Below, one piece after another: positions 24,554-24,960 of a DNA stretch of 64,000 bases. Position 1 is the first letter of the stretch; each line of letters opens with the position of its first letter. The translations under genes and the position numbers were made by a program. The notes below the pieces were generated by a model. That model worked only from the letters and a program-made list of their open reading frames with translations, made no database searches and was not told where the DNA came from. Origin of the DNA: Accumulibacter sp. (GTDB taxonomy: Bacteria; Pseudomonadota; Gammaproteobacteria; Burkholderiales; Rhodocyclaceae); the NCBI GenBank assembly GCA_024235715.1, contig JACKLW010000006.1:420739-484738 (forward strand), in the 5' to 3' direction.

Positions 24554-24639
24554 CCGCCTGACCTGCATGACCGCCCGCCGCGTCGGAGAATGGTCATTCG
24601 TGAGCAGTCGTTCCAGGGCCTTGAATTCGCGCATCAGAG

Positions 24640-24906
24640 CGCCCATAATGCTTCGCATGGTCGTAATTCCGGCAAACCGGAAGCGTTCTGGACGCGGGTT
24701 CGATTCCCGCCACCTCCACCACTGCGGGGGTGCACCGGTTTCGACAGGGTGACAGATGGCGAGCAGGCGGCCCGAGAGGCGACGGACGTAATCCGCGCAA
24801 AACCACAAACGCCAACGATGAGCGTTTCGCAATGGCCGCTTAAGGCCTGCTGAGGACATAGCCGTCCGATAAACAGAATGGCTATCGGTGGGGGCTTCGG
24901 CCCCCA
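24640..24906 (+). ncRNA. ssrA: tmRNA (ssrA), circularly permuted two-piece form
   Basis: The acceptor half is encoded before the coding half. Acceptor half: T arm GCGGG-TTCGATT-CCCGC (24694-24710), acceptor strand CACCTCC (24711-24717), discriminator A and encoded CCA (24719-24721). After only four bases (CTGC) comes the partner strand GGGGGTG (24726-24732; seven pairs with one G-U), the D-like loop GTTTCGACAGGG, and the tag frame at 24811-24843: A-N-D-E-R-F-A-M-A-A-stop. A hairpin TTCCGG-CAAA-CCGGAA lies at 24667-24682. Permuted two-piece tmRNA is known in a subset of betaproteobacteria. The 5' end is not determined. Confidence 0.9.
24889..24906 (+). terminator. Terminator-like hairpin at the end of ssrA
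   Basis: TGGGGGC-TTCG-GCCCCCA, a 7-base-pair stem with a UUCG tetraloop at the 3' side of the coding half. No U tract follows (TCGTCATTTC), so it may be a structural or processing element rather than an intrinsic terminator. Confidence 0.5.
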
Positions 24907-24960
24907 TCGTCATTTCTGGCGGTGCTGCCCAGCCCTGGTCGATGGCCAGGGCGGCGCATG

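Follow-up and report, generated by a model that had tools for sequence, protein, structure and literature searches.

A circularly permuted betaproteobacterial tmRNA gene with a four-nucleotide spacer, and the two junction designs of its relatives

The window, the whole stretch of 64,000 nucleotides of Accumulibacter sp. DNA that was analyzed, holds a circularly permuted betaproteobacterial tmRNA gene at 24655-24912 on the forward strand (Table 1). The original prediction had described a permuted, two-piece-type tmRNA with a four-base spacer, and on this point direct reading of the sequence, ARAGORN and Rfam were in agreement. The covariance search with the permuted betaproteobacterial model, which had been proposed as the check, matched RF01850 (beta_tmRNA) over its whole model length at 24607-24912 (+), with 234 bits (E = 2e-74, gathering score = 84). 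RF04321 (tmRNA_permuted) matched 24659-24843 with 157.5 bits, and the two scores exclude a chance match. ARAGORN, run on the whole window, called the permuted tmRNA with the tag ANDERFAMAA as the sole tRNA or tmRNA gene; no tRNA with an anticodon was called by ARAGORN at the locus, where the tag reading frame is found instead. The bounds proposed earlier, 24640..24906, located the gene correctly, but the start at 24640 falls within the promoter and the terminator hairpin continues to about 24909.

Table 1. Features of the permuted tmRNA locus, in positions of the window.
Feature	Position	Strand	Basis
Putative sigma-70-type promoter (TTGAAT 24621-24626, CATAAT 24644-24649, 17-bp spacing)	24621..24649	+	Read by eye; inside RF01850 match
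Acceptor piece, encoded first, 3' end = encoded CCA	24655..24721	+	RF01850 alignment; 5' end predicted from promoter
T arm, GCGGG-TTCGATT-CCCGC	24694..24710	+	Sequence, fold
Acceptor stem 3' strand, CACCTCC	24711..24717	+	Sequence, RF01850
Discriminator A	24718	+	Sequence
Encoded CCA	24719-24721	+	Sequence
Intervening segment CTGC, N(-4) to N(-1) ahead of coding piece	24722..24725	+	Sequence, relatives
Acceptor stem 5' strand, GGGGGTG, 5' end of coding piece	24726..24732	+	Sequence, RF01850
Tag frame ANDERFAMAA (GCC...GCT)	24811-24840	+	Sequence, ARAGORN
Stop TAA of tag frame	24841-24843	+	Sequence, ARAGORN
H-type pseudoknot	24854..24885	+	Pair counts in relatives
Pseudoknot stem 1, GGAC / GTCC	24854-24857 / 24864-24867	+	
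Pseudoknot stem 2, ATAGCC / GGCTAT	24858-24863 / 24880-24885	+	
A-rich pseudoknot loop	24868-24879	+	
Terminator hairpin, G+C-rich, TTCG loop, to ~24909	24886..24912	+	RF01850 alignment, fold -20.9 kcal/mol

The acceptor half lies before the coding half, and the two halves pair as a 7-bp acceptor stem whose third pair is G.U (G3.U70). A G.U at the third acceptor pair is the alanine identity pair. The order of the parts, their pairing, the CCA and the tag were read directly from the DNA, as were the pseudoknot and the conservation of the spacer described below. Given the position of the promoter, the RNA should start near 24655, and by analogy with the family it would physically be in two pieces.

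The genome from which the window was taken (4.14 Mb, 25 contigs) is 90.5% complete. RF01850 matched this locus alone across the genome, and a search for standard ssrA with RF00023 gave 12 weak matches, none above the cut-off, the best of which (30.9 bits) overlaps the permuted locus. A standard ssrA elsewhere, which the original prediction had named as evidence against itself, was thus not seen with either model, and at 90.5% completeness this absence is not final. SmpB is encoded at G000:C21:12132-12560 (PF01668, 193 bits). The tmRNA gene is flanked by fliE (PF02049) upstream and by a SulP-type sulfate permease gene (PF00916) downstream, and its closest rows in the tmRNA tree are named Candidatus Accumulibacter. 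The CCA is encoded in 31 of the 33 distinct tRNA genes that ARAGORN found in the loci examined (loci for 30 of the genome's 43 tRNA matches, with L003-L009 added). Permuted and standard tmRNA genes alternate among species of the same genus; all 12 of the non-permuted genomes tested, from nine such genera, carry a standard gene (196-212 bits).

Within the same family RF01850 scored above its cut-off in 75 of 199 genomes, and the spacer of these was 4 nt in 23, 23-48 nt in 51 and unreadable in one (G025, locus L116), where the acceptor part is missing from the assembly. The survey thereby confirmed the short spacer as real and as conserved in a group of relatives. An order-wide pattern (399 genomes, 0-30 nt) matched the window tmRNA together with L064 and L065, which yielded no tmRNA junction, and a looser class-wide pattern (369 genomes, 0-12 nt) matched only the window's own tmRNA. 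A scan of genome contigs (84,980 species by description, 0-10 nt allowed) gave 29 loci, 28 at 4 nt and one (L067) at 3 nt, in Accumulibacter, other Rhodocyclaceae, a Sulfuritalea MAG, Dechloromonas sp. H13, an Azonexaceae isolate and betaproteobacterial bins; since the scan patterns fix a CCTCC or CTCC acceptor end and the CCA, these counts leave aside genes with other acceptor sequences or lacking CCA. The 4-nt spacer is a trait common to a group of related bacteria, not a one-off.

Junctions were read in 119 sequences (118 loci and the window). L001, L002 and L015 were excluded from classification as copies of the window locus, and 13 loci had no junction: L003-L009 (weak RF00023 matches), L018, L064 and L065 (pattern matches, taken for tRNAs), L116 (acceptor part missing), L117 (a fragment) and L118 (SmpB). 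The 103 classified loci, some of which are the same organism under two names, comprised 52 short (51 at 4 nt, 1 at 3 nt) and 51 long. All 52 short-class loci encode the CCA. The 4-nt host spacers begin with C (position -4) in 51 of 51 cases, reading CTGC in 15, CTGG in 11, CTGA in 10, CAGG in 10, CTAC in 3, CGAC in 1 and CTAT in 1, and the sole 3-nt spacer reads TGC. In the long class, 27-52 nt separate the acceptor strands, the CCA is not encoded in 48 of 51 loci (ACCC, ACCT, ACCG or ACAG stands in its place), and the acceptor stem is extended by 10-14 pairs in 49 of 51 (two mismatches allowed). By this measure the extended helix is absent from two loci, both of which encode the CCA: L032, with a 24-nt spacer, and L061, where by eye the helix is offset by one base. 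L102 has both an encoded CCA and the helix. Covariation of the long helix was assessed over its first 12 positions in 47 distinct sequences, a set without L032 and L061. Of these positions 11.2 pair, whereas shuffling the two sides among the sequences 500 times gave 9.7 on average and 10.1 at most. Folding gave 19-20 continuous pairs in three long-class junctions and 7 pairs with an 8-nt loop in the window, and three short junctions ending in GG folded as 7 pairs plus two extra G-C pairs. The CCA position is described as "not always encoding CCA" in the accessible text of the tmRNA database paper (PMC11915505). One long-class group (L040, L043, L058) has ACAG after the acceptor strand and does not encode even CC, and its helix still continues.

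Downstream of the tag, ATAGCC/GGCTAT and CCGATA/TATCGG had been proposed to pair in mutually exclusive ways, as a pseudoknot or a switch. The former pairing was upheld, at coordinates corrected by one base, as the second stem of an H-type pseudoknot, in which two pairs of stem 1 are compensated. In 18 relatives (16 distinct), 99.4% of 160 cells were paired, and 9 of 500 shuffles were as high; in the same relatives two pairs of stem 1 were changed on both sides and stem 2 was kept, the rows having been hand-picked from 28 distinct same-type sequences (26 plus L021 and L084) with variants preferred, which favours finding changes. A single-sequence fold of the window favours a hairpin of the stem-2 halves and omits stem 1; pseudoknots cannot be drawn by ViennaRNA. 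The switch did not survive the comparison: CCGATA/TATCGG was paired in 84.4% of cells and showed no compensating change, and its third pair fails in 11 of the 16 distinct relatives, which rules out a switch between the two pairings as a conserved feature. A distinct form of the 3' pseudoknot characterizes the largest short clade, and the short genes L026, L010/L070 and those of a Dechloromonas group (L031, L092, L094) share the form found in the long genes. Most bases differ between the pseudoknot of the largest short clade, as in the window, and that of L036 and others, and the layout is similar.

Three viral contigs (L190-L192) carry the same acceptor stem and a 4-nt spacer, and two of them are nearly alike around the gene. 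RecT is encoded on L191 and L192, a terminase and a portal also on L192, and a phage-type DNA polymerase on L190. A looser viral pattern with encoded CCA gave 56 stretches at 0-12 nt and 108 at 13-43 nt, and the acceptor stem and T arm pairing holds in all 164 junctions. Among 102 unique viral junctions the spacer was 3 nt in 1, 4 nt in 10 and 5 nt in 8, and the commonest length was 28 nt (15 junctions). The 18 unique spacers of 4-5 nt have C(-4) in 11 and A(-2) in 14 (hand count). Spacers of 0, 1 or 2 nt, which the patterns allowed, occurred in none of the 29 genome loci or 102 unique viral junctions, a floor that applies to genes with an encoded CCA and a CTCC acceptor end, as the patterns require both. 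Predicted tags of the viral permuted tmRNAs with 3-5-nt spacers are odd, e.g., ANDSSYLKVA and ADSQESALPMAA. Against phage records the window tmRNA gave 12 partial matches only, and against plasmid records four matches, of which one from Cupriavidus is full-length at 67.5%. In another genome (G112, locus L189, C1:4082900-4092700), a roughly 8.8-kb element (8,829 bp from repeat to repeat) lies within the T arm of a permuted tmRNA gene and encodes a tyrosine integrase (PF00589) and a resolvase (PF00239). An exact repeat of 57-58 bases is found at both ends of the element, spanning the RNA start to the T arm; these repeats and the differing promoters before the two copies suggest that the element replaces the first half of the gene.

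We regard it as probable, though by no means certain, that the locus is a working permuted tmRNA and that RNase P opens short-class precursors with a single cut in the 8-nt loop, after which the 3' end is trimmed; all steps after transcription are those that we infer. A single transcript would be made from the promoter, and CACCTCC would pair with GGGGGTG within it, leaving the 8-nt loop A-CCA-CUGC. RNase P would cut this precursor once, just before GGGGGTG, and so set free the coding piece at its 5' end; the acceptor piece, then ending in ...CCA-CUGC, would lose its four extra bases to 3' exonucleases. By such a cut and trimming, CTGC would not be excised as a segment, and its short length would be no obstacle. 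The spacer would act as a minimal RNase P leader that ends at N(-4), the farthest position for which the accessible text of PMC9433436 gives a base preference. After maturation the two pieces would remain paired, receive alanine and work in trans-translation together with SmpB. Maturation of the genes with long spacers would probably start with some other cut and require that the CCA be added, because their leader pairs with the bases in the CCA place, which should hinder RNase P.

The spacer sequences bear on this route in both directions. According to the parts of PMC9433436 that were available, C(-4) and A(-2) are favoured by E. coli RNase P, leader-RCCA pairing slows it, cutting one leader to 2 nt lowers kcat/Km about 5-fold, and GG was the slowest N(-2)N(-1) pair in the tests. 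The C(-4) of all 51 four-nucleotide host spacers speaks for an RNase P cut, the sequences being related and so not independent. Against it, A(-2) is present in only 5 of the 51, and 21 of the 51 end in GG, the ending for which the three folded loops had two extra pairs. The closed 8-nt loop may also hinder the usual path of the leader along the RNase P protein. A different endonuclease, e.g., of RNase E-type or RNase Z/BN-type, could then nick the CUGC loop first, with RNase P and exonucleases only tidying the ends, and we judge this rather unlikely but worth weighing. The RNase P protein contacts the leader beyond N(-3), a contact perhaps barred by a closed loop (PMC9433436, available parts), and a review, in the portion available, leaves open whether linear ends are required by RNase P and tRNase Z (PMC3978253). 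Against a different nuclease, host spacers with their C(-4) and viral spacers with their C(-4) and A(-2) bear a partial likeness to the leaders that RNase P prefers. RNase Z is usually deterred by an encoded CCA, which counts against a first nick of RNase Z-type.

Two further readings deny either the processing or the function of the locus, and both appear very improbable. The halves could stay joined through the CTGC link and work as one molecule, as the link is just 4 nt, but alanine charging requires a free 3' CCA end. The locus could also be a decayed or unused copy, with a standard ssrA in the missing tenth of the genome. The incomplete assembly in 25 contigs is compatible with a decayed copy, as is the standard gene of other species within several genera of the family (the 12 non-permuted genomes above); however, all functional parts are intact and conserved among relatives, fliE is also found at 20 of 51 other short-class loci (many of these being short stretches), and a standard gene scored above the cut-off in none of five permuted-gene genomes, of which G023, G053 and G137 are one contig each.

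The history of the spacer classes was analyzed on a tmRNA tree built without the spacer. With 98 rows (89 different sequences, full coding piece; five of the 103 classified loci being too short to include), 4 changes between classes were counted, with a long-branch warning for L115. A 93-row tree, from which L115, L025, L110, L051, L032 and the 3' region were omitted, gave 2 changes (2-3 in bootstraps), and a single short clade was rejected (p-AU 0.00026). A single origin of the 4-nt spacer was therefore ruled out on the tmRNA trees; the class switch happened at least twice, and the count depends on the rows. On an RpoB tree of 27 genomes (of 30, G172, G097 and G101 having no RpoB match), with the reading frame fixed by a conserved motif, the classes were scattered, with 8 changes, 5 of them forced by supported branches, and 149-151 of 500 shuffles were as low. 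Mixed bins are possible for some many-contig genomes; G018, G023 and G053 each consist of one contig. The scatter would be explained by spacers having shortened repeatedly, by horizontal exchange or by both.

Horizontal exchange of whole tmRNA genes or junctions, through phages or islands, may even have been the main means by which the spacer class spread, the 4 nt then reflecting descent more than a processing constraint; we consider this possible, with the balance of our judgment against it. It concerns history and is compatible with the RNase P explanation. Consistent with exchange, the large short clade with its own pseudoknot has hosts scattered on the RpoB tree, the short form is present on viral contigs, and at L189 an island has apparently taken the place of the first half of a permuted gene. 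However, the short class is not one clade on either tmRNA tree, and viral acceptor stems differ in sequence, yet 3-5-nt spacers are common to them.

Together with the RNase P route, a broader reading is put forward tentatively, to which we give slightly more credence than to spread mainly by exchange. The classes may represent two interchangeable precursor designs, one a long hairpin in which an incomplete CCA is hidden, the other a minimal 8-nt loop that carries the full CCA. Bacteria and phages would have converged repeatedly on the second, the floor of 3-4 nt would correspond to the smallest leader cleavable by RNase P in a closed loop, and the switch would swap a multi-enzyme route for one cut and trimming. 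The tiny conserved spacer raises the question of how the RNA is cut in two, and the spacer data point to a minimum size for cleavage by RNase P within a closed loop. Natural pairs of long and short spacers in one bacterial family permit a simple in vitro test of the point raised in the available portion of PMC3978253.

The window gene is a member of a described family and is already known as a kind; two-piece tmRNA in some betaproteobacteria is stated in the accessible text of PMC3985003 and PMC11915505. Gene order, acceptor stem, T arm, tag, promoter region, post-tag structure and terminator are like those of the betaproteobacterial permuted tmRNA (RF01850, RF04321). The window gene differs from RF01850 in its 4-nt spacer, where the model has 28 positions, its encoded CCA and its lack of an extended acceptor helix; most long-class relatives, in contrast, have a hairpin spacer and no encoded CCA. 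Alphaproteobacterial permuted tmRNA (e.g., Caulobacter, Pelagibacter) has the permuted order likewise and is cleaved into two pieces (PMC3985003, accessible text), but 75-125 bp lie between its two sections (PMC2704228, accessible text) against 4 nt here. In permuted tRNA genes of algae and Thermofilum the 3' half is also encoded first, and the spacers measure 1-74 bp, with lengths of 1 and 5 among them; splicing and ligation of the other ends yields a continuous tRNA in that case, whereas tmRNA halves are not rejoined (PMC3978253, available portion). Viral permuted tmRNAs share a 3-5-nt spacer and encoded CCA in 19 of 102 unique junctions (e.g., L190-L192), but have other tags and other downstream sequence. 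No description of the spacer classes was found in the accessible parts of the literature searched, and their novelty is provisional, since Sharkady and Williams 2004 and Mao et al. 2009, the primary papers on permuted tmRNA genes, were outside its scope.

The tag of the window gene has Met where Leu is common in relatives, as had been noted in the original prediction, although it is not unique in this: ANDERFAMAA was found in 7 of 52 short-class loci (window included) and ANDERFALAA in 35 of 52. The long-class gene L110 (genome G047) also has the tag ANDERFAMAA, so that Met in the tag probably arose more than once.
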